This document shows, piece by piece, positions 39,653-51,438 of a DNA stretch of 64,000 nucleotides (position 1 is its first letter; each line of letters begins with the position of its first letter). A program made the position numbers and the translations under genes. The stretch lies in the NCBI GenBank assembly GCA_021414365.1, contig JAIOOR010000003.1, positions 47,014 through 111,013 of the forward strand. The letters run 5' to 3'. Source of the DNA: Nitrosarchaeum sp. (GTDB lineage Archaea > Thermoproteota > Nitrososphaeria > Nitrososphaerales > Nitrosopumilaceae). The notes under the pieces were generated by a model that saw only the letters and a list, made by a program, of their open reading frames with translations, was not told the origin of the DNA and ran no database searches.

Positions 39653-40303
39653 ATGAAAAACAATTCGAAATTAATTCTATTTGGTTTCATCTTACTATTC
39701 ATTTTATTACCAAATAATGTATTTGCACAAGAATCTGATACAGATGGTGACGGCATCTCTGATTCTACTGATTCTTGTCCAACTGAACCTGAAACCATTA
39801 ACGGATTCCAAGACACAGACGGTTGTCCTGATGTAGTTCCACCATCTGATACAGATGGTGACGGCATCTCTGATTCTACTGATTCTTGTCCAACTCAACC
39901 TGAAACCGTTAATGGATTTGAGGATCTTGACGGTTGTCCTGATGCCCTAGCCCCAAAAGATTCAGATCATGATGGCATCATGGATGATTTTGATTCTTGT
40001 CCAACTCAACCTGAAACAATAAACAATTATCAAGACACAGACGGTTGTCCTGATGTAGCTCAACCAACTGATATTGATAGTGACGGAATTCCAGATTCAA
40101 TTGATTCTTGTCCTACTCAAGCTGAAACCATTAACGGATTCCAAGACACAGACGGTTGTCCTGATGTAGTTACTGGAATTGATACATCAAAATCAGAACC
40201 TGAGCAAAATAACTCCCTCTTGCAATGGACAGCTGTCATTGCTTCTGCCATTACCGCTGTAGGAGCTATAAGTGCTGCAAAACTCCGAAAATCTTCTTCT
40301 TGA
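39653..40303 (+). CDS. Secreted thrombospondin type-3 / Ca-binding repeat protein with C-terminal TM anchor
   Basis: Four DTDGDGISDSTDSCPTEPETINGFQDTDGCPDV-type repeats. Confidence 0.88.
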   Translation: MKNNSKLILFGFILLFILLPNNVFAQESDTDGDGISDSTDSCPTEPETINGFQDTDGCPDVVPPSDTDGDGISDSTDSCPTQPETVNGFEDLDGCPDALAPKDSDHDGIMDDFDSCPTQPETINNYQDTDGCPDVAQPTDIDSDGIPDSIDSCPTQAETINGFQDTDGCPDVVTGIDTSKSEPEQNNSLLQWTAVIASAITAVGAISAAKLRKSSS

Positions 40304-40629: not shown

Positions 40630-41109
40630 TTAGAATCTTGGAATTGCGAATCCTAGTGTTTGGAAGATTTCCATTAATCTTTCAATTGATTGATCTCTGT
40701 TTGGGTTTTTTGAGAGATTTGAAATTATGCTTTGAGCTTCATTGAGTGCATCCGTTTTTGTTATTAGTGTCGCACCAAGTGTTTTACCCTCTTTTGCTTT
40801 CATTACTGCACCATAGTAAGAACACTCTCCTTTTGGAATTACTTGATTAACTCCAAGAGTTACTTTTTCTACGTCTGATTTTAGATCAATCATTGAGACT
40901 GCTAGAGCATAATCTGTTGCACATGCCTTTACAATATAGCTCCAGTAAGGAGAACCTATTTTGTATTGTTTTACAAGTGTCTTAGTTAGATATTTGCTAA
41001 CAGAACCATCATTACCTGCATAAGTTTGAGCTTCACTGGTATGTAATGGGGCTAAGATCAATGAACCTACTAGTGCACTAAATGTAAAGAAAATTATTTT
41101 TTTATTCAT
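40630..41109 (-). CDS. Secreted protein, unknown
   Basis: Signal peptide; preceded by SD-like GGAGGTGA; ATGA overlap with upstream zinc protein. Confidence 0.65.
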   Translation of the reverse strand: MNKKIIFFTFSALVGSLILAPLHTSEAQTYAGNDGSVSKYLTKTLVKQYKIGSPYWSYIVKACATDYALAVSMIDLKSDVEKVTLGVNQVIPKGECSYYGAVMKAKEGKTLGATLITKTDALNEAQSIISNLSKNPNRDQSIERLMEIFQTLGFAIPRF

Positions 41110-41429
41110 AAATTCACCTCCTTGGTTTTTTGACGAGTGTAACGTATGCCTTTTGCAAAAAAAATCAAAGTACTACAAGATAAATGAGTACCTGTGATGA
41201 TGTGTCTCTGGCAATGAAGACATTCCCTCATCGTTGCTCTTTTACACACTACACATACAGCGATAGGGGTCAGAGGACCATCACAGTTTTCACACGCATA
41301 CAAAAAATTGCATGGAAAATTTGAAGAGACAATATCCTGTTGCCTGATTTCTGCTCGGGATGATAAAAAGTCAGGAGAATTGGGACTCTTTGAAAGAAGG
41401 CTTTGGTTTTGCTCTTCGGTATTACTCAT
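41106..41429 (-). CDS. Zinc-knuckle protein (CxxC x3 + H/C)
   Basis: CENCDGPLTPIAVCVVCKRATMRECLHCQRHIITGTHLSC. Confidence 0.7.
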   Translation of the reverse strand: MSNTEEQNQSLLSKSPNSPDFLSSRAEIRQQDIVSSNFPCNFLYACENCDGPLTPIAVCVVCKRATMRECLHCQRHIITGTHLSCSTLIFFAKGIRYTRQKTKEVNL

Positions 41430-41472
41430 TGAATTGTATTTTACAGTTTGATATTAGGGAATAACTTATCGT

Positions 41473-41484
41473 TTGTGGCATGCC
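41473..41484 (-). promoter_or_regulatory. GGCATGCCACAA element (site A)
   Basis: Exact 12-mer, 44 nt from ATG at 41429. Confidence 0.8.
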
Positions 41485-41536
41485 TTAATTTCAATTGATT
41501 TTAAAACAGTTTAAATCATTGAGTGACTGCTTTGTT

Positions 41537-43447
41537 GTGAATTCATTGAAGTTATCCACCACATTAATTATTGGAACATTTGTAATCTTTCTAATTTTTG
41601 GAATTTATGGATATTATTCATTTTCGATTTCCATTCAAGAAGTCAATAAATTACTTGCATCAAGGAATGAAGGATTTGCATTCAACATGATGCAGGATCT
41701 TGATGAGCATATTGATAAAAGAATTGGGGATTTTAGGCAGATAACTCAATTATCAGTTGTTCAAGATTCATTAAAAACATCAAATGAAAAATTTTCTCAG
41801 ATTACAGACGTACAAAAAGTAATTGAACAACAAGATATAATTAACAAAGAGAAAAATCAACCGTTTATTCCATCCAGTGATGTTGAGCTTACATCAGAGC
41901 TAACTGATTTAATAAATTTATATAGAACAGAATATGACTATGATGTCATTTCTGAGTTATACATTACAAATGCATATGGTGCAAATGTTGCAATTGGTTC
42001 TGGAACTTCTGATTACAGACACGATGATGAGACATGGTGGCAAGAAACAAAATCAAATGGAGTGTACATTGGAGATATTGAATTTAATAAAAAATACAAC
42101 AACTATGCAACAACAATTGGTCTGAGAATTAATGATGAGGATGGAAATTTTCTTGGAATCCTCAGTGTTACTTTGACACTAAATGATTTGATTCATGAAT
42201 TTATCAATGATGCAGAAATTATCAGTATACAAAACCGATCTATTCTTTTAATAAACGAAAAAGGGCAAATAATTTACTTTAACGGCATTCAGGATTTCAA
42301 AGATTTACAACCTGTACCATATTTTGAAAAGATTCAATCCTTGAAAGACGTTGGGACAATAGATATTTCCAGTAACACTGATGAGCTAAGATTGATTTCA
42401 TACTCAAAATCCACTGGGTATAAGCAGTTTGAGGGTTTTGGGTGGACTGCAATAGTAGATCAAACAAGTTCTTCTTTTACTGAGGAATTCATTGATCTAA
42501 AAAATTCATTCCTAGTGATATCTGCTTTGGGAATGACATCCTCAGTAATAATTGGCCTTGTAATGTCGTATTTTATTTCACGACCTTTGCGTTCATTGAG
42601 TCAAATGGCAAAGCAGTTCTCAGTAGGAGAATTTAATTCAAAATTCAAGGACTCAAAAATATCTGAAATCAACATGATTGGCAAATCATTTGACCAAATG
42701 GGAGAATCTTTAAAAAAATTAATTGAAACAGAAAAAAAATTAGCTGAATCTCATGTCAAGATGAAAAACGAACGCCTAGGGGCAATAGGACAGCTTTCTG
42801 CAAGCATGGCACATGATCTGAAAAATCCTCTTGCAACAATTAGAACATCGTCAGCTATAATTCAAAAATTTGGAGACAATAAAGATCCTGAAGTTAAAAA
42901 AGCAATACAAAGAATGAACAGAGCAATATTTCGAATGTCTCACCAGATTGATGACGTACTTAATTTTGTAAGAATGACTCCATTGACTGTGTCTGAAAAA
43001 AAATTATCTGATATCCTCAATAACTCCATTGATTCTCTAGAAATTCCAAAGAACATAAAATTGGAAATCAAAGATTCTGATTTTATCATTTCTTGTGATT
43101 ACAAAAAAATGGAAACTGTATTTTCAAATATTATATTAAATGCTATTCAGGCAATTGGAGATTCGGCTGGAAGTATTCTTATAATATCAAGATCAATCAA
43201 TGGAGAAATCGAGATAAAAATTTCTGATTCTGGCCCAGAGGTAACACAAGAAATTCTAGAAAAAATATTTGAGCCACTTTTTACTACGAAACAAAAGGGA
43301 ACTGGACTGGGATTATCGTCTTGTAAAAACATTATAGAGCAACACGGTGGAAGCATCTCTGTTCAAAACAATCCCACCACTTTTACTATAATTCTTCCAA
43401 AAAAGGACAATAAAACAGTAAGAGATTTTAACGAAAAATCAGAGTAA
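41537..43447 (+). CDS. Sensor histidine kinase (Cache-like sensor, HAMP, HisKA, HATPase)
   Basis: Two TMs; MAHDLKNPLATIRTS H-box; GTGLGLSSCKNIIEQHGG; GTG start favoured by TATA-like TTTAAA 25 nt upstream. Confidence 0.88.
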   Translation: MNSLKLSTTLIIGTFVIFLIFGIYGYYSFSISIQEVNKLLASRNEGFAFNMMQDLDEHIDKRIGDFRQITQLSVVQDSLKTSNEKFSQITDVQKVIEQQDIINKEKNQPFIPSSDVELTSELTDLINLYRTEYDYDVISELYITNAYGANVAIGSGTSDYRHDDETWWQETKSNGVYIGDIEFNKKYNNYATTIGLRINDEDGNFLGILSVTLTLNDLIHEFINDAEIISIQNRSILLINEKGQIIYFNGIQDFKDLQPVPYFEKIQSLKDVGTIDISSNTDELRLISYSKSTGYKQFEGFGWTAIVDQTSSSFTEEFIDLKNSFLVISALGMTSSVIIGLVMSYFISRPLRSLSQMAKQFSVGEFNSKFKDSKISEINMIGKSFDQMGESLKKLIETEKKLAESHVKMKNERLGAIGQLSASMAHDLKNPLATIRTSSAIIQKFGDNKDPEVKKAIQRMNRAIFRMSHQIDDVLNFVRMTPLTVSEKKLSDILNNSIDSLEIPKNIKLEIKDSDFIISCDYKKMETVFSNIILNAIQAIGDSAGSILIISRSINGEIEIKISDSGPEVTQEILEKIFEPLFTTKQKGTGLGLSSCKNIIEQHGGSISVQNNPTTFTIILPKKDNKTVRDFNEKSE

Positions 43448-43453
43448 TTTGTA

Positions 43454-43819
43454 TTGAGTCAGAAAAAGGTCATTCTTATTGTTGATGACGATGTAGATCT
43501 TTTGGAAAATACCTCGTTTTTAATCAAAAGCAGTGGGTATGATGTGGTAATGGCTCAAAATGGTGTTGAGGCAGTTCAAAAATACAAAGAAACAAGCCCA
43601 AATCTAGTCTTAATGGATGTGAGAATGCCAATTCTTGATGGATATGATGCGTTTTTTAAAATAAAGCAATTTGATCAAAATGCCAAAGTCATTTTAATTA
43701 CAGCTTATGCTCATGATGAAAAAAAACACATCAAGGCAAAAAGCCTCAATCTAATTGATACAATTTCAAAGCCATACACAATTGAGCAGCTAGAAGATTC
43801 TATCTCAAAGTATAGTTAG
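43454..43819 (+). CDS. Response regulator receiver (CheY-like)
   Basis: ILIVDDDVDLLENT, VLMDVRMPILDGYDA, SKPY. Confidence 0.93.
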   Translation: MSQKKVILIVDDDVDLLENTSFLIKSSGYDVVMAQNGVEAVQKYKETSPNLVLMDVRMPILDGYDAFFKIKQFDQNAKVILITAYAHDEKKHIKAKSLNLIDTISKPYTIEQLEDSISKYS

Positions 43820-44664
43820 GATTTTAGCTTCTTTATCTGCTTGAATCTGTTTGTATAAAACGATATTGCTTCATCGACAAACCTGTAATACCATTTTTTC
43901 AAGCCAGGATCATTATCGAGTAATTTTTTCCATCTTTTTGATTTATCATTAGTTGATCTCTTTGAAGATATCAGAAGATTTGTGTAAAACCAATATGATA
44001 TCTGGTCTGCAAGATCTTCTTCATTTATCTGCTCAAAGTTACTTTGATATTTTACATTAAGATATGTCATCAATTCATAAATTGGCAAGGCTGTAATATT
44101 TGAGATCTGAATATTATCCATAAACATTCCAGATGCTAGCGTCTTTAGTCTGTCTGTATCATTACCAATAGTTGATTTTAGATATGTCCATCTACCAAAA
44201 ATTTGTGGCAATACATCTGAATATTTTTCTGCCATTTTTTCAATTTCTTTTTCTGAGAGATTGAGCACGTCAAGGCAATACAATATTCCGTGGAGTGATA
44301 ATCTGTAAATATCAGCTGGAGCCTTTTGTAGACTTTTTCCGTCCTTTACTACCAATCCCACATCAAGCAAACCCATAGTGTGTTTTCCCCTTGCCATTCT
44401 TCCTACTAGTAATCTTCTGTAATCTTTTTCTTGAGTTCTAATGTTTGAAGTATCTGAGAGATGTGTTTTTGCCATTCCCCAAGTTGTTAGTCTGCCGTTA
44501 ACTGCAAGTATCTCTAGTAATTTTTGGATATTTTCATGATGTTTTGGTCCTGCCCGATTTCTGTACGAGTATTGTCCAAAGATTTTCTGAGCTGTTGGTC
44601 GTGTATACTGCTTATATGCTAAAAGATTCCCATACACTGCACCCTGTTCTTTTACCGATGGCAT
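43816..44664 (-). CDS. Hypothetical protein, winged-helix-like N-terminus
   Basis: 282-aa ORF; HHENIQKLLEILAVNGRLTTWGMAKTH. Confidence 0.65.
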   Translation of the reverse strand: MPSVKEQGAVYGNLLAYKQYTRPTAQKIFGQYSYRNRAGPKHHENIQKLLEILAVNGRLTTWGMAKTHLSDTSNIRTQEKDYRRLLVGRMARGKHTMGLLDVGLVVKDGKSLQKAPADIYRLSLHGILYCLDVLNLSEKEIEKMAEKYSDVLPQIFGRWTYLKSTIGNDTDRLKTLASGMFMDNIQISNITALPIYELMTYLNVKYQSNFEQINEEDLADQISYWFYTNLLISSKRSTNDKSKRWKKLLDNDPGLKKWYYRFVDEAISFYTNRFKQIKKLKS

Positions 44665-44671
44665 GCCACAA
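44660..44671 (+). promoter_or_regulatory. GGCATGCCACAA element (site B)
   Basis: Exact 12-mer, 43 nt from ATG at 44714; overlaps start codon of divergent 43816..44664. Confidence 0.8.
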
Positions 44672-44713
44672 TCTTATGTTTATCATCATATAATAACATA
44701 CAATATCCAATTT

Positions 44714-44815
44714 ATGCGAAAAACATCGGACATCTTTTTTTTACAATCTATGCCTTATTTTGGAAATATTGGGCACAAAATTGACCTATTTTCAAACTCT
44801 AGGAGGAATCTATGA
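44714..44815 (+). CDS. 33-aa leader-like/small ORF
   Basis: Read by eye: MRKTSDIFFLQSMPYFGNIGHKIDLFSNSRRNL; ATGA overlap with next ORF. Confidence 0.4.
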   Translation: MRKTSDIFFLQSMPYFGNIGHKIDLFSNSRRNL

Positions 44816-44952
44816 CTCCTGGTCAGATGGAAGCAAGAAAAAAGAAAATGGCAAAAGCCATGAACACTCCTCCAAACTACATGTCTAAAAAAGCTGTTGC
44901 TGATCAAAAGAAATGGAAAAATATCAAAGACGATGGATTGCCAAGGTATTAA
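44812..44952 (+). CDS. 46-aa Lys-rich small protein
   Basis: AGGAGG SD then MTPGQMEARKKKMAKAMNTPPNYMSKKAVADQKKWKNIKDDGLPRY. Confidence 0.6.
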   Translation: MTPGQMEARKKKMAKAMNTPPNYMSKKAVADQKKWKNIKDDGLPRY

Positions 44953-45050
44953 AAATTTTGATTAACCATTTGTAAATAAATTAGTGTACAGATTGATAGA
45001 CTTAGAACAATGACTTACTCTAACATCAAAACATTTGTATCTCGTTACTT

Positions 45051-45350
45051 TTATTTTGATATTGCGAATTTTAATATTGATGTAGAATTGGATAAATATT
45101 TTTGATCAATCAAATCTTTTCCTATGAAATTCCAATTTTGATCATGAAATAATTTTAAACAAATATCCATTATTCGATAATGAGGATATCTTTCAAGCAT
45201 TTTCTTTTCACCCATTATTTTGAATTTTTCATACATGTATGTACAACGTATTTCATCTATTTTTTTTACTGATATCTTAGCTAGAGATTCATGCGTGATA
45301 TAATTTGAAAATATCAATATGATCAAAATTAAAATAAGAATTTTTTTCAT
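45051..45350 (-). CDS. Secreted small protein, unknown
   Basis: Signal peptide-like N-terminus. Confidence 0.5.
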   Translation of the reverse strand: MKKILILILIILIFSNYITHESLAKISVKKIDEIRCTYMYEKFKIMGEKKMLERYPHYRIMDICLKLFHDQNWNFIGKDLIDQKYLSNSTSILKFAISK

Positions 45351-45356
45351 ATCAAT

Positions 45357-45452
45357 TCAGAACAGAGTATTCTTTATCTGAAAAATAGTGAATGCTTGTT
45401 TGTTTTTATTGAAAACTATTTGATTTATGCTTACTTTTACCATTAGACCCAT
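45357..45452 (-). CDS. 31-aa small ORF candidate
   Basis: Read by eye: MGLMVKVSINQIVFNKNKQAFTIFQIKNTLF; positioned 42 nt from site C with TATATAA between. Confidence 0.3.
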   Translation of the reverse strand: MGLMVKVSINQIVFNKNKQAFTIFQIKNTLF

Positions 45453-45493
45453 ACGTCAAAAATCTAAAATTGTTATATAATAATAGGTGAGAA

Positions 45494-45505
45494 TTTGTGG
45501 CATGC
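45494..45505 (-). promoter_or_regulatory. GGCATGCCACAA element (site C)
   Basis: Exact 12-mer. Confidence 0.75.
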
Positions 45506-45602
45506 CATGCGTTCATTTGTATTGCTTTTGAATTCTTTTACTAAATACATGTCTTGGTTCTTTGCTGTTTTTCACAGAAAATCTGATTGACATGATAGAT
45601 AT

Positions 45603-45776
45603 CTAGTAATCATCCTCAAAAAATACCCATGATAGTCCTACCATGTCCATAGCAGAAGTGTTTTGCCTTGAGATTATCTCTAAGTATAGTTTTTCATCCT
45701 CTTTTACTGGGATACTGTCAACCAGAATTTTTGTAGCCTCGGAGTGGCTGTTTCTAACATATTGAATTTGTTGCAT
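45603..45776 (-). CDS. KILVDSIPV-family small protein (paralog 1)
   Basis: MQQIQYVRNSHSEATKILVDSIPVKEDEKLYLEII...MVGLSWVFFEDDY. Confidence 0.75.
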   Translation of the reverse strand: MQQIQYVRNSHSEATKILVDSIPVKEDEKLYLEIISRQNTSAMDMVGLSWVFFEDDY

Positions 45777-45822
45777 TTTCAAAATTATTAGGGTATAGAG
45801 ATATTTGTCAATAGTTTCATGT

Positions 45823-45834
45823 TTGTGGCATGCC
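45823..45834 (-). promoter_or_regulatory. GGCATGCCACAA element (site D)
   Basis: Exact 12-mer, 47 nt from ATG at 45776. Confidence 0.8.
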
Positions 45835-45887
45835 ATCTAGATAAATGGCGTTTTCAAAATCATGAAATACTGGAATTTAGATCTGAT

Positions 45888-47174
45888 TTATTGTCTGTAT
45901 GCCCGATACAGTATATCATTGTAATCGTCTTTGAGGGAACTGATCTGACCTCTCAGATCTATAATCTTTTTAGTGTGCATTTCCATTTGGTCATTGAAAT
46001 CAGATTTTTTATTTTTGTCATTGAGTAGTGTTCGTATCATATCTCTTTCATCTTGTATCTGTTTTTGCAGATTGTTAATTTGGTTTTCAAGATCAGGTAT
46101 TTTATCCGACTCTGTGTTTCCTGCCATCTTTACAGAAATTGTATCTGGGTTGATAGCTGTTATCTTTGCTGAAGTCATCTGACAAGTGTTTGCTGAAATT
46201 TTGTTTCCAATCTTTACATTAGATGATTCCTTATCTGAAGATATCATTACTATTGGAAGAGTAATTTGGTTTTTGCCTGCACATGCTTCAAATATTGTAT
46301 CATATGTGTTGGGTGTGCTGATTGATTTTTTTGCAGTTATCAATTTGGCTGAATCTCCTTCTATAGGTTCACCTGTAAATGATAGTTTTTGAATGTTGTA
46401 TTTTTCAGTGGGTACTGCATACACAGTAAAGTATAATCTGTAAAGATCCTCTTTTGCATCGTTTATCTGTTTTCTAAGATCTATTATCTTTAAAATCTGA
46501 CTGGTGTCTGGAGATGATGGATCACCCAGTAATTTTTTTGCAGTATCTAGTTCTTGCTGAAGTGATGCTATCGTTGCTTCTCCATCTGATAATGTCTGAG
46601 AAATATCGCCCTTGTTTAGCAGTGTAACTGTAATGCTATCGGGGTTTGATGCCTTGATAAAAGTGGCACTTAGGACACAGCTATTTTTTTCAATGTTTTC
46701 TGGGATCTCATAGTGTTGTGTTTCACTATCTGATTTTACTATGATATCTGGAACATAGATTTTAAGAAATGATGCACATACTTCAAATGCAAAATCATAT
46801 CCGGCTATAGCACCACTTGAAGACACTGTCCCCGTTTTAGCCTTTATTGGTTGTGCATACAGTTTGTTTATAGTTGAAAATACTGTGGCATCTTGTTTTA
46901 CTTGTGCATCCAAATGTTCTTGTTTGACTGGTTTTGCCCAACCATTTGCTATTAGTTGAATAACATGACTTATTTTTACACATGCAGGAGTACTTGTTGT
47001 TTCTTTGATTAGCTTAAATGTTCCAGTTTCACATGATATATCATCTGCAGATATTCCCAAAGCAATCTGCTTTTTTGGTGGAATAATGTCTGCAAATGCA
47101 TTATGTAGGCTAGAGCCTGATATCATAAAAGATACTGCAAGTAGAGTGAAAATAATTAGAATTTGTTTGTGCAA
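45888..47174 (-). CDS. Secreted coiled-coil protein with internal domain duplication
   Basis: Signal peptide; two FE(V/A)CA...NPD(S/T)I(T/S)V + IIDLR coiled-coil units. Confidence 0.75.
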   Translation of the reverse strand: MHKQILIIFTLLAVSFMISGSSLHNAFADIIPPKKQIALGISADDISCETGTFKLIKETTSTPACVKISHVIQLIANGWAKPVKQEHLDAQVKQDATVFSTINKLYAQPIKAKTGTVSSSGAIAGYDFAFEVCASFLKIYVPDIIVKSDSETQHYEIPENIEKNSCVLSATFIKASNPDSITVTLLNKGDISQTLSDGEATIASLQQELDTAKKLLGDPSSPDTSQILKIIDLRKQINDAKEDLYRLYFTVYAVPTEKYNIQKLSFTGEPIEGDSAKLITAKKSISTPNTYDTIFEACAGKNQITLPIVMISSDKESSNVKIGNKISANTCQMTSAKITAINPDTISVKMAGNTESDKIPDLENQINNLQKQIQDERDMIRTLLNDKNKKSDFNDQMEMHTKKIIDLRGQISSLKDDYNDILYRAYRQ

Positions 47175-47262
47175 TTATTTTTATAGTTTTTAATAGTATT
47201 TAAAACTTGAATTCATATTAGTTGTAATTTTTATTTTCTACAAATTTTATATTTGATTTTTA

Positions 47263-47274
47263 GGCATGCCACAA
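47263..47274 (+). promoter_or_regulatory. GGCATGCCACAA element (site E)
   Basis: Exact 12-mer, 44 nt from ATG at 47318. Confidence 0.8.
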
Positions 47275-47317
47275 TTGTCTAACTATTGTATAATATTTGA
47301 TGTATCATTATTTTATC

Positions 47318-47533
47318 ATGAGTCAAATCTATTTACAACCAAGGCAACCTGAGCCTTCAAAAATACTGGTTGATAGTATCCCAGTAAAAAAAGGTGAAAA
47401 ACTTGAAACAGTACAAGTAAGATGTTTGGATTGTTCTTCACAAACAATACCACATGTTTACACCCGATATTCAGTCCCACTTGTGCTCAAATGCACTAAT
47501 TGTGGCCGCAAGTCCTGGGCTAACGCATCCTAA
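47318..47533 (+). CDS. KILVDSIPV-family small protein with zinc ribbon (paralog 2)
   Basis: MSQIYLQPRQPEPSKILVDSIPVKKGEKLETVQVRCLDC...LKCTNCGRKSW. Confidence 0.8.
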   Translation: MSQIYLQPRQPEPSKILVDSIPVKKGEKLETVQVRCLDCSSQTIPHVYTRYSVPLVLKCTNCGRKSWANAS

Positions 47534-47545
47534 GGCATGCCACAA
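47534..47545 (+). promoter_or_regulatory. GGCATGCCACAA element (site F)
   Basis: Exact 12-mer, 43 nt from ATG at 47588. Confidence 0.8.
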
Positions 47546-47587
47546 ACCCACATCTATGCCCAAGTATGTGTTTGCAGATGATATTCT

Positions 47588-47887
47588 ATGAAACAAACAC
47601 TCTATCTGAAAATAAATTCCACATTTAACCCGTCATTGATTGTACAAACTTCTGAGGCAGCATATCTACAAATTCTACTTGGAGAATTATCTCAAAAAGA
47701 CTACAAAATATTCAAACAAATTATAATTGCAATAAAAACAAACAGTGACACTCAAAGTGTGATACTTGCCTCTGAATTGGCAAGAATAAGAATTCTGGAG
47801 AAAAATATTTGTATGACTTTGGAATTATTGCAGCATTTCAAAACAAAAAATTTGTGTTTATTGGCATATCATGGAATCAAGAAATAA
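47588..47887 (+). CDS. Hypothetical 99-aa helical protein
   Basis: ORF following site F. Confidence 0.6.
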   Translation: MKQTLYLKINSTFNPSLIVQTSEAAYLQILLGELSQKDYKIFKQIIIAIKTNSDTQSVILASELARIRILEKNICMTLELLQHFKTKNLCLLAYHGIKK

Positions 47888-48068
47888 ATTTATTCTCACT
47901 ATAACAATAAGCATTGTTATAGTTATTGTCGGATTTTTTATTTTAGGTCTAGATAAAGTATTAATCAAACCTCTTATTCTCAAAGATTATGCAATTTCAA
48001 ATACGTCTCTCATTTTAGATAGATCAAAATCTCTTATTCAAGTTTCTCAAATGTCCACTACACATTGA
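47871..48068 (+). CDS. Small membrane-anchored protein
   Basis: One N-terminal TM (FILTITISIVIVIVGFFILGL). Confidence 0.5.
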   Translation: MESRNKFILTITISIVIVIVGFFILGLDKVLIKPLILKDYAISNTSLILDRSKSLIQVSQMSTTH

Positions 48069-48138
48069 ATATGAAAAATAAACAAAATATTACAATTTAT
48101 CAACAATGTTTATCAGGCAATGAAATGATGATTTTCTT

Positions 48139-49140
48139 ATGAAGTTTATTTTTATTTTGTTTCTAGTATTTGCAATGACTTATCCAATAACTATTTTTGC
48201 AGAGCCTTCTATCACACTAGACAAAACATCTTACACTACAGATCAAACCATCAAAGTTTCTGGAAAAGTTGTTTTTCAAGAGAATACCTCTCTTGTTATC
48301 CAAATTCGTAGCTCATCAGATATTGTTGCAATTAAACAACTCACCCCATCAAAATCGGGATCATTTTCAACCAGTTTTGATGCAACTGGTCCAAAATGGG
48401 CAGAATCAGGCACATATACCATAATTGTTTCATATGCAGGTGAAAAATCTGAAAAAACATTTGAGTTTTCTATTATCAATGTGTCTGAAAGTGAAACAAA
48501 GATTGAGCCCACTCAAAAGCAGGAACCTCAAAAAACCGAACCTATTCAAGATACACAACCTCAAAAACCCACCCTAAAGATTTCAATGGTGGGCTTTCCA
48601 GATCCCACACTATCACCAAATTATTACATTGACTTGTACAATACAGACTCTGTTTTTAAAAAATTATTTGACACGTCATTTCCAGGATTTAAAATCCAAG
48701 AAATAGTGGGATACAAACCGACTCATATTCCAGGATTTCCAGATTCGGCTCTATCCCCCCAATACTATATTGATAGATATTCCAATGAGACACGATTCAA
48801 GATATGGTTTGATTCACAATTCCCAGATAACACTATTTATGATATTGTTGGAATATCAGATAAAACAAAACAATCGATCCCAAGCTGGATTAAACAGTAT
48901 GCCCAATCATGGTCAAAAGATGAAATTACAGATTCACAATTTGCATCAGGAATTGCAGAGTTAATTCAAGAAAAAATACTTTTGATAAATGGCGATATTG
49001 TAAAAACAAAAAATCAAAATGGAAGCATCCCTTCGTGGTTTAAGAATACTGCTTTATGGTATTCAGAGGGGGTAATCACAGAGGATGATTTTCTACTTGG
49101 ATTACAATACTTGATTGAAAAAGAGATCATAGTAATCTAA
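48139..49140 (+). CDS. Secreted protein: Ig-like domain, two GFPDxxLSPxYYID repeats, two W-rich C-terminal repeats
   Basis: Signal peptide; GFPDPTLSPNYYIDLY / GFPDSALSPQYYIDRY; IPSWIKQYAQSWSKDEITDSQF / IPSWFKNTALWYSEGVITEDDF. Confidence 0.8.
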   Translation: MKFIFILFLVFAMTYPITIFAEPSITLDKTSYTTDQTIKVSGKVVFQENTSLVIQIRSSSDIVAIKQLTPSKSGSFSTSFDATGPKWAESGTYTIIVSYAGEKSEKTFEFSIINVSESETKIEPTQKQEPQKTEPIQDTQPQKPTLKISMVGFPDPTLSPNYYIDLYNTDSVFKKLFDTSFPGFKIQEIVGYKPTHIPGFPDSALSPQYYIDRYSNETRFKIWFDSQFPDNTIYDIVGISDKTKQSIPSWIKQYAQSWSKDEITDSQFASGIAELIQEKILLINGDIVKTKNQNGSIPSWFKNTALWYSEGVITEDDFLLGLQYLIEKEIIVI

Positions 49141-49195
49141 ACATTTTGAATCTAATTATATCAAACTCACAGATGCTTTCCGGATAAAAATTTAA

Positions 49196-49207
49196 GGCAT
49201 GCCACAA
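49196..49207 (+). promoter_or_regulatory. GGCATGCCACAA element (site G)
   Basis: Exact 12-mer, 43 nt from ATG at 49250. Confidence 0.8.
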
Positions 49208-49249
49208 AACACTAGTTATGACAATATATTTCTAAACTCAAAATCTATC

Positions 49250-49420
49250 ATGTCTACAATCTTAACTCACAGGCAACCTGAGCCTTCAAAAATACTGGTT
49301 GATAGTATCCCAGTAAAAAAAGGTGAAAAACTTGTAACCAAACAAAGCCCAATGCAATTCACATGTGAAGATCTGATCGGGCTCACATGGGTTCTATTTG
49401 ATAAGGGAGATGAGATTTAG
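49250..49420 (+). CDS. KILVDSIPV-family small protein (paralog 3)
   Basis: MSTILTHRQPEPSKILVDSIPVKKGEKLVTKQSPMQFTCEDLIGLTWVLFDKGDEI. Confidence 0.75.
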   Translation: MSTILTHRQPEPSKILVDSIPVKKGEKLVTKQSPMQFTCEDLIGLTWVLFDKGDEI

Positions 49421-49816
49421 TTGGAAAGCAAGCAAGTTTGTTTTTATGATTATGCTTGTAATCAAATGAGTCAAAATAACTGTATAAGATTTGCAGTAAT
49501 CATTAACAATAAAGGAAGAAAAATTGCTGGAGGTTTTAATCCCAAAATAACTCCATTAGAAAAAGACACGCAAAAAATGGAGATGTTATTTATGGAAATA
49601 GCACTTGATCTGTCAATGAAAAAGGAATTTGACAACTCATTGGGAACCATAAATGCCATAGTATCATACCGAAACAAAGTCAACATCATCACCATCCCAC
49701 ATAAGGATAGTTTTATGTTGATTTCTTCTGAAATAGGCTTAGATCCTATCAAAATAATTCAAATAGCATACCAAAATCTCAGATCAATGAAAATTATTAA
49801 GGTAATGACCAATTAG
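49421..49816 (+). CDS. Conserved hypothetical
   Basis: TTG start directly after preceding stop; 131-aa globular ORF. Confidence 0.6.
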   Translation: MESKQVCFYDYACNQMSQNNCIRFAVIINNKGRKIAGGFNPKITPLEKDTQKMEMLFMEIALDLSMKKEFDNSLGTINAIVSYRNKVNIITIPHKDSFMLISSEIGLDPIKIIQIAYQNLRSMKIIKVMTN

Positions 49817-50048: not shown

Positions 50049-51116
50049 ATGTCTGATAAATTAGATTATTTTCATACCACCAACATGGACATTTATCGTG
50101 AACTCTATGAAAATTCACTGATACTTTTTAGAACAACAAATTTGAAAGGTGAAATAATTAACTGCAATAAAGCATATTCTGATACTTTGGGTTATACTAA
50201 AAATGAGATTATTGGGCAGAGCATATTTTCTCATACTGCTAAAGAAAGCCTTGATGAGATGAATGATATGTTTAACACGTGGAAATCAGGAGTGGCAGTC
50301 TCAAATAGAGAAATATGGCTAAAGAAAAAAAATGATGATGAAATTTTGGGATTGTTTAGTGCAAATAATCTCTATGATGATGGTGTCCTCGTTGGAAGCA
50401 ATACTGCAATTCAGGACATAACTGAAATTACTATGCTAAAAAAAGAGTTCAAAACTCTAAAGAGAAAAAGACAGGAGATTATGGGGGAGTTATCCGGTAG
50501 AATAGCACATGATCTCAAAAATCCTTTGAGTGTTATTAAAAATTCCATACAAATAATGCAAATGAAAGACGACTTGTTAGTTCAGAAACATTTGAGTTTG
50601 TTTAAGGCAATTGATCGTTCAATATTTCGAATGGATCATCAAATTAATCAGGTGTTAGATTTTGTAAATCCAAAACCTTTGAATCGTAATGTGTGCTCTA
50701 TTAAAAAAATAATTGAATGCATCATTAATGATGTGATAAATCCTGAGAATGTAGCCATAGAATTACCTAAAAACGATGCCATGATTAGTTGTGATAAAGA
50801 AAAATTAGAAATTGTATTTGAAAATCTATTACTAAATGCAATTCAGGCAATGGGAGGAAATGGAACACTTGATATATCATTGGAGGAAATCCAATCATAC
50901 ATTAAAATACAAATTAAAGACTCTGGACCTGGAATACCAAACGAACTAATTCCAAAAATTTTTGATCCTCTATTTACCACAAGGCAGATTGGGACTGGTT
51001 TGGGATTGCCAAGCTGTAAAACAATTATTGAGCAACATGGAGGGAACATATCATTTGAAACTAAAATTGGACATGGAACAATTTTTGAAATATCGCTACC
51101 TAGACATTCACTTTAG
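50049..51116 (+). CDS. PAS-domain sensor histidine kinase
   Basis: PAS (RTTNLKGEIINCNKAYSDTLGYTKNEIIGQSIFS), RIAHDLKNPLSVIKNS, GTGLGLPSCKTIIEQHGG. Confidence 0.92.
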   Translation: MSDKLDYFHTTNMDIYRELYENSLILFRTTNLKGEIINCNKAYSDTLGYTKNEIIGQSIFSHTAKESLDEMNDMFNTWKSGVAVSNREIWLKKKNDDEILGLFSANNLYDDGVLVGSNTAIQDITEITMLKKEFKTLKRKRQEIMGELSGRIAHDLKNPLSVIKNSIQIMQMKDDLLVQKHLSLFKAIDRSIFRMDHQINQVLDFVNPKPLNRNVCSIKKIIECIINDVINPENVAIELPKNDAMISCDKEKLEIVFENLLLNAIQAMGGNGTLDISLEEIQSYIKIQIKDSGPGIPNELIPKIFDPLFTTRQIGTGLGLPSCKTIIEQHGGNISFETKIGHGTIFEISLPRHSL

Positions 51117-51249: not shown

Positions 51250-51438
51250 TCATTTTGTTCTCAGTATGGGACTTTCAAACTGGTAGATGTGTTCAATTAC
51301 CATGCATTGAGAATGAATCTGCTTGATGGCAGTATATCCACAATTATGACAAAAAAACTCATTTGCCTGTTTGCAAATTTTGCAATTTTCATTTACTTCT
51401 AATGTTTTGCCACATTTTCTACATGAATCAATTCTCAT
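51250..51438 (-). CDS. Small zinc-knuckle protein, paralog of 41106..41429
   Basis: CRKCGKTLEVNENCKICKQANEFFCHNCGYTAIKQIHSQC. Confidence 0.75.
   Translation of the reverse strand: MRIDSCRKCGKTLEVNENCKICKQANEFFCHNCGYTAIKQIHSQCMVIEHIYQFESPILRTK

Follow-up and report, generated by a model that had tools for sequence, protein, structure and literature searches.

A conserved twelve-base operator and its probable winged-helix regulator beside a kinase-receiver pair in Nitrosopumilaceae

In a census of archaeal two-component systems, receiver-only proteins make up about 75% of the thaumarchaeal response regulators; the functions of most of them could not be inferred, and the interaction of response regulators with neighbouring helix-turn-helix (HTH) proteins remained undemonstrated (PMC5847659). 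Archaeal kinases and receivers tied to HTH transcription control are described in FilI/FilR1/FilR2 of Methanosaeta and LtrK/LtrR of Methanococcoides, and thaumarchaeal receiver-only regulators adjoin predicted DNA-binding ArsR (HTH_20) genes in the arCOG03067 pairs (PMC5847659). In the TrmB family of Thermococcales and haloarchaea, a winged-helix protein with a palindromic operator activates from a site upstream of the transcription factor B recognition element (BRE) and TATA box and represses from a site over the start (PMC4158304). Here, a 64,000-nucleotide stretch of the genome of Nitrosarchaeum sp. (contig JAIOOR010000003.1; hereafter the window) is described, in which a repeated 12-mer, GGCATGCCACAA, is likely to be the operator of a three-protein Nitrosopumilaceae signalling system whose winged-helix protein would repress its own gene and activate a regulon of small proteins.

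The locus differs from each of these systems. In FilR1 and LtrR the HTH is fused to the receiver, whereas here the two are separate proteins and the winged-helix family is without a profile match. The arCOG03067 pairs are divergent and of the HTH_20 type, whereas the genes here are convergent, include a kinase, give no HTH_20 match and come with a defined operator and regulon. The system resembles TrmB in its winged-helix protein, its palindromic operator and, putatively, its position-dependent repression and activation, but the window protein has no Pfam TrmB match, is encoded with a kinase and a receiver, and the operator sequence is unrelated. The window protein appears to be a previously undescribed DNA-binding candidate without a Pfam or NCBIfam family, and a literature search that covered few subscription papers found no description of the motif. 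The cassette supplies a candidate DNA-binding partner for a receiver-only regulator together with a defined operator, promoter architecture and target list. It becomes possible to test directly in vitro, with no need for genetics, how an external signal reaches transcription in ammonia-oxidizing archaea, and the system may show how these archaea convert outside signals into gene expression.

The 12-mer occurs seven times in the window as an exact match, all copies lying inside 7.7 kb, and dinucleotide-preserving shuffles contained none. In the 1,875,056-base (1.88-Mb) genome these seven are all the exact copies present, which extends a preliminary description of this DNA in which seven copies and no further one in the window had been reported; six of its coordinates were right, but the third copy lies at 45495-45506 and not at 45494-45505. 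Counted from the motif's first base, the ATG follows at 55, 54, 54, 58, 55, 54 and 54 nt for sites A-G in order, which agrees, within a coordinate slip, with the 42-47 nt earlier counted from the motif end. GGCATGCCACAA is almost certainly a real and conserved operator. Its copies are the following.

41473..41484, minus strand: site A, operator GGCATGCCACAA, exact match, ATG at +55; predicted to drive the zinc-knuckle operon and also upstream of the kinase gene
44660..44671, plus strand: site B, operator, exact match; its GGCATGCC includes the winged-helix gene's start codon on the opposite strand
44688..44695, no strand: TATA-like box of site B, ATATAATA, read from the sequence, conserved in position and placed to serve both directions
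45495..45506, minus strand: site C, operator, exact match
45823..45834, minus strand: site D, operator, exact match
47263..47274, plus strand: site E, operator, exact match
47534..47545, plus strand: site F, operator, exact match, with a weak TATA
49196..49207, plus strand: site G, operator, exact match

Among 250 genomes of the same GTDB family (Nitrosopumilaceae), the exact 12-mer was detected in 53, and a reversed-sequence control was almost absent. Exact matches in GC-rich surroundings were discounted as chance hits or artefacts, and a profile of the architecture was built from 95 AT-rich sites. Outside the 12-mer, the informative positions were -2/-1 (AA), +22/+23 (AT), +28 to +35 (TATA-like) and, weakly, about +54. 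The order conserved in Nitrosopumilaceae is GGCATGCCACAA, 19 bp later a partial GGYAT, at +28 to +35 a TATA-like box and finally an ATG, mostly at +54/55. Positions +19 to +23 often read GGYAT, the first half of the palindrome repeated 19 bp, about two helical turns, further on; of 70 composite sites, 18 had GYAT at +20, and no other offset had it in more than 4. The ATG was found at +54 or +55 in 42 of the 60 measured composite sites, the opposite of what the preliminary description had named as refuting it, a motif spread about without any favoured spacing to start codons. With the A of the ATG as +1, the operator occupies -54 to -43, upstream of BRE/TATA as had been proposed; this placement, probable leaderless transcripts, a dimeric regulator and a regulon of small proteins, all suggested in the preliminary description, withstood the present tests. 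The TATA-like stretch reported before the ATG is real across relatives and, as had been remarked, weak at site F. Transcription of the target genes is likely leaderless; a simple TATA profile over 43 open reading frames (ORFs) of the window had too few instances to establish the typical distance from TATA to ATG.

In an 84,980-species collection, the composite pattern matched thaumarchaeal records and scattered unrelated bacterial contigs, the latter in about the number that, by our own estimate, chance would give. Among the viral contigs scanned, one carried the composite pattern and none was found to encode the winged-helix protein, and a virus origin of the system was rejected on these grounds. 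The exact matches in genome G132 were set aside as chance or artefact, many being at contig ends near position 40. On many contigs of this genome the 12-mer stands at positions about 39-52, a constant distance from the contig ends, and the one locus examined was GC-rich; these copies are probably assembly or contaminant end sequence.

Beside site B lies a cassette of three genes, which were not part of the preliminary description.

43816..44664, minus strand: winged-helix protein, 282 aa (family about 285 aa), the proposed operator-binding regulator, from an AlphaFold2 model, fold neighbours, co-occurrence and a start codon inside the operator
43454..43819, plus strand: receiver-only response regulator, 121 aa (PF00072, E=1.7e-25), part of the conserved cassette
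41495..43447, plus strand, start probably about 41537: sensor histidine kinase, dCache-HAMP-HisKA-HATPase, from Pfam (PF00512, 1.9e-13; PF02518, 3.8e-22), part of the conserved cassette

The ATG of the winged-helix gene sits inside the palindrome GGCATGCC of site B, and, with one exception, the 19 close orthologs have GTGGyATGCC at this start. An AlphaFold2 model built from 58 diverse relatives reached a predicted local distance difference test score (pLDDT) of 86.8 and a predicted template modelling score of 0.87, compared to a pLDDT of 44.5 with 7 close sequences only. In this model the protein has a winged-helix fold: residues about 18-139 align in VIA with winged-helix regulators, for example MarR (root mean square deviation 1.8 Å over 77 residues, Z 6.5) and including RosR, PadR and CzrA, and among the 50 matches listed nearly all were winged-HTH regulators with Z of 5.5-6.5. 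The predicted likeness to MarR, PadR, ArsR and RosR goes no further, as there is no sequence match and an extra helical C-terminal domain follows the winged-HTH part. For the window protein, neither Pfam nor NCBIfam gave a match to MarR, PadR, ArsR or TrmB, and these four families were also absent from the Pfam matches obtained with the 58 relatives. No credible hit for the window protein came from sequence profiles of Pfam, NCBIfam or the PDB, and Foldseek alone gave no match for the model at E < 0.001.

The operator and this protein occur together. In the 250 genomes, the composite motif and a close winged-helix ortholog were both present in 19, the motif only in 7, the protein only in 1 and neither in 223 (Fisher p = 9e-22, a value that overstates independence because the genomes are related). 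The lone protein-only genome, G031, has three copies of GGCATACCACAA close to the gene, and two of these precede targets at the expected distance. The complete genome G001 carries sites at 311, 330, 944 and 1207-1214 kb; with sites at four distant places, linkage alone does not explain the co-occurrence. In the genus here called g16, the start codon of the orthologs reads TTGCGGyATGCC, and the operator there was therefore predicted as GGCATRCCGCAA. When GGCATRCCGCAA was scanned for, G214, G215, G222 and G230, four of the five gene-bearing g16 genomes, each showed a cluster of 3 to 6 copies surrounding the gene; most copies are followed by a TATA and an ATG at +54-56 (mostly +54), and several by zinc-knuckle/MGLSW orthologs. 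Paralogs with GGCATACCGTAA at the start are divergent to MGLSW-family genes with the geometry unchanged, and another paralog class, with ACCATACCGCAA, is divergent to ribbon-helix-helix-like genes. We infer that every paralog controls its own expression by way of a particular variant of the operator, and that the winged-helix protein 43816-44664 probably binds GGCATGCCACAA.

In the cassette the kinase gene is followed by the receiver gene, which meets the winged-helix gene tail-to-tail, with the two 3′ ends overlapping by 4 bp. The 121-aa protein is a receiver only, with no output domain fused to it as in a classical transcriptional response regulator. At 33 loci with about 3.8 kb of flank searched by tblastn, paralogs included, the receiver was beside the winged-helix gene in 33 of 33 and the kinase in 32 of 33, the exception being G087. 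Since this neighbourhood is constant, the receiver probably controls the winged-helix protein under the direction of the kinase. The presence of a Cache domain points to a small molecule outside the cell as the signal.

The proposed mechanism may be depicted as follows. Phosphotransfer would lead from the Cache-domain histidine kinase to the receiver-only response regulator, and from there the signal would reach the stand-alone winged-helix protein, which would take over the role normal for the output domain of a response regulator. It would bind the palindrome as a dimer and, in part, also the second half-site GGYAT two helical turns on, abutting BRE/TATA. At the small-protein genes, where the site is upstream of BRE/TATA, the bound regulator would most likely recruit the TATA-binding protein and transcription factor B (TBP/TFB) and activate leaderless transcription; at its own gene it would cover the start and repress its own synthesis. 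At site B a single element, together with a TATA box common to both directions, would serve to activate the target and repress the regulator. By the position rule of TrmB the system would activate its targets and repress its own regulator gene, and we somewhat favour activation at the targets. Mainly repressive action, in which the protein against the BRE (GGYAT at +19) blocks TFB/TBP at all promoters until released by a signal, is less probable: the second half-site abuts BRE/TATA and a site covering the regulator's start is consistent with repression, but the strongest element lies at least 16 bp upstream of the TATA, the usual archaeal activator position (PMC4158304).

The 12-mer might instead be recognised by another transcription factor encoded elsewhere, the winged-helix gene being merely one more of its targets; a site at this gene is what one would expect of a target. 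We regard this as improbable, because the motif co-occurs with the winged-helix gene (computed for this orthogroup, not systematically for other regulators), the operator variants change together with the clade of that gene, and its protein is the DNA-binding candidate constantly beside the sites. Spread of the motif without regulatory meaning, whether carried by a repeat or mobile element or copied along with duplicating small paralogs, would account for the clustering of copies in this genome and for three targets being paralogs; this reading is largely refuted and hardly credible, given that the flanks differ except for the promoter elements, that unrelated gene families carry the motif, that several genera conserve it and G001 has it at scattered loci, and that only a single viral contig matches and none encodes the protein. 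Besides the relatedness of the genomes, several points weigh against regulation by the winged-helix protein through the composite promoter. Seven genomes have composite-like motifs without a close ortholog, G155 and G157 carrying paralogs only, and some of the seven are probably chance or remnants. Conservation at the start may partly reflect coding (CGMP), which cannot explain the other sites. The fold matches are middling and no sequence family supports DNA binding. The distance from the centre of the target TATA to the ATG is about 22-23 nt, 3-4 nt under the textbook 26-27 (archaeal TATA position -26/27; PMC4158304), and because of this shorter spacing the transcription start may not coincide exactly with the ATG.

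The genes under the operator are listed below.

41106..41429, minus strand: zinc-knuckle protein, 107 aa, target of site A, with orthologs under the motif in other genera
40630..41109, minus strand: secreted-type protein, 159 aa, second gene of the site A operon
44714..44815, plus strand: 33-aa ORF at +54 of site B, which may be only a leader
44812..44952, plus strand: 46-aa protein MTPGQMEARKKK..., downstream of site B, with orthologs downstream of the motif in G001, G015 and G017
45357..45452, minus strand: 31-aa ORF at +54 of site C, which may be only a leader
45051..45350, minus strand: 99-aa secreted-type protein downstream of site C, whose relative in G230 starts directly at +54
45603..45776, minus strand: 57-aa KILVDSIPV / MGLSW family protein, target of site D, from a family search
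47318..47533, plus strand: 71-aa KILVDSIPV protein with a zinc ribbon, target of site E
47588..47887, plus strand: 99-aa truncated ESCRT-III (CdvB-like) hairpin protein, target of site F, from a profile match to the genome's own CdvB paralogs
49250..49420, plus strand: 56-aa KILVDSIPV / GLTW protein, target of site G
49421..49816, plus strand: DUF6659 protein (PF20364), directly 3′ of the site G gene and probably co-transcribed, the order being kept in G002

Two points of the preliminary description are corrected here: the ATG of site B opens the 33-aa ORF, after which comes the conserved 46-aa ORF, and the ATG of site C opens the 31-aa ORF, with the 99-aa secreted-type ORF following. The families that recur under the motif are the 48-60-aa KILVDSIPV/MGLSW proteins (in 66 of 250 genomes), the zinc-knuckle proteins, the zinc-ribbon version, and secreted 95-197-aa, 46-aa and 94-99-aa proteins. 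Apart from the regulator, its start-codon overlap, the cassette and the +19 half-site, the assignment of the 99-aa protein of site F as CdvB-like is new relative to the preliminary description. Its G001 ortholog matched NF041005 (1.1e-5), and a profile of five orthologs matched the genome's own CdvB paralogs (2e-12, 5e-11 and 4e-8). The N-terminal helical hairpin of CdvB is present, but the full-length ESCRT-III core is absent from these proteins of less than 100 aa, which cover approximately model positions 33-102 of 212. In G231 and G232, shorter relatives are encoded divergently from the regulator gene. Hairpin-only proteins of 94-99 aa under or beside the operator were seen at 47588-47887 of the window, L102:5405-5689 and L103:7186-7470, and such a protein might cap or modulate CdvB polymers.

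A wider proposal, which we consider doubtful, is a lineage-specific family of split response regulators with separate kinase, receiver and winged-helix protein, in which each paralogous cassette has its own operator variant over the regulator start, shared with a divergent small gene; the ACAA-class regulon (truncated ESCRT-III, zinc-knuckle and MGLSW micro-proteins) may then adjust the Cdv (ESCRT) machinery to an outside signal.

Regulators paired with ACAA operators carry Ala or Ser at residue 91 of the winged-helix protein, the second position past a conserved GR motif, and most of those paired with GCAA/GTAA operators carry Asp. This position may be a specificity residue, which would fit direct recognition, or may reflect a single ancestral change on the tree, and is not used as proof. 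The window's own genome has a second winged-helix paralog at G000:C18:25855-26640 (L219, L243), with its start codon within AACCATACCGCAAA; it is divergent to a 47-aa ribbon-helix-helix-like protein, and the pair recurs in L213, L214, L216, L221, L227 and L229. A second histidine kinase (PAS-HisKA-HATPase) at 50049-51116 lies just outside the cluster, without its own operator site. In G002 an operon (L103:7611-8565) encodes an MGLSW-family protein, a DUF6659 protein and two small zinc-ribbon proteins; the window retains the first two genes of this order at 49250-49816 and has a zinc protein at 51250-51438 on the opposite strand. The secreted-type protein at 39653-40303 contains repeated DTDGDGISDSTDSCPTxPETINGFQDTDGCPD units that resemble calcium-binding type 3 repeats.

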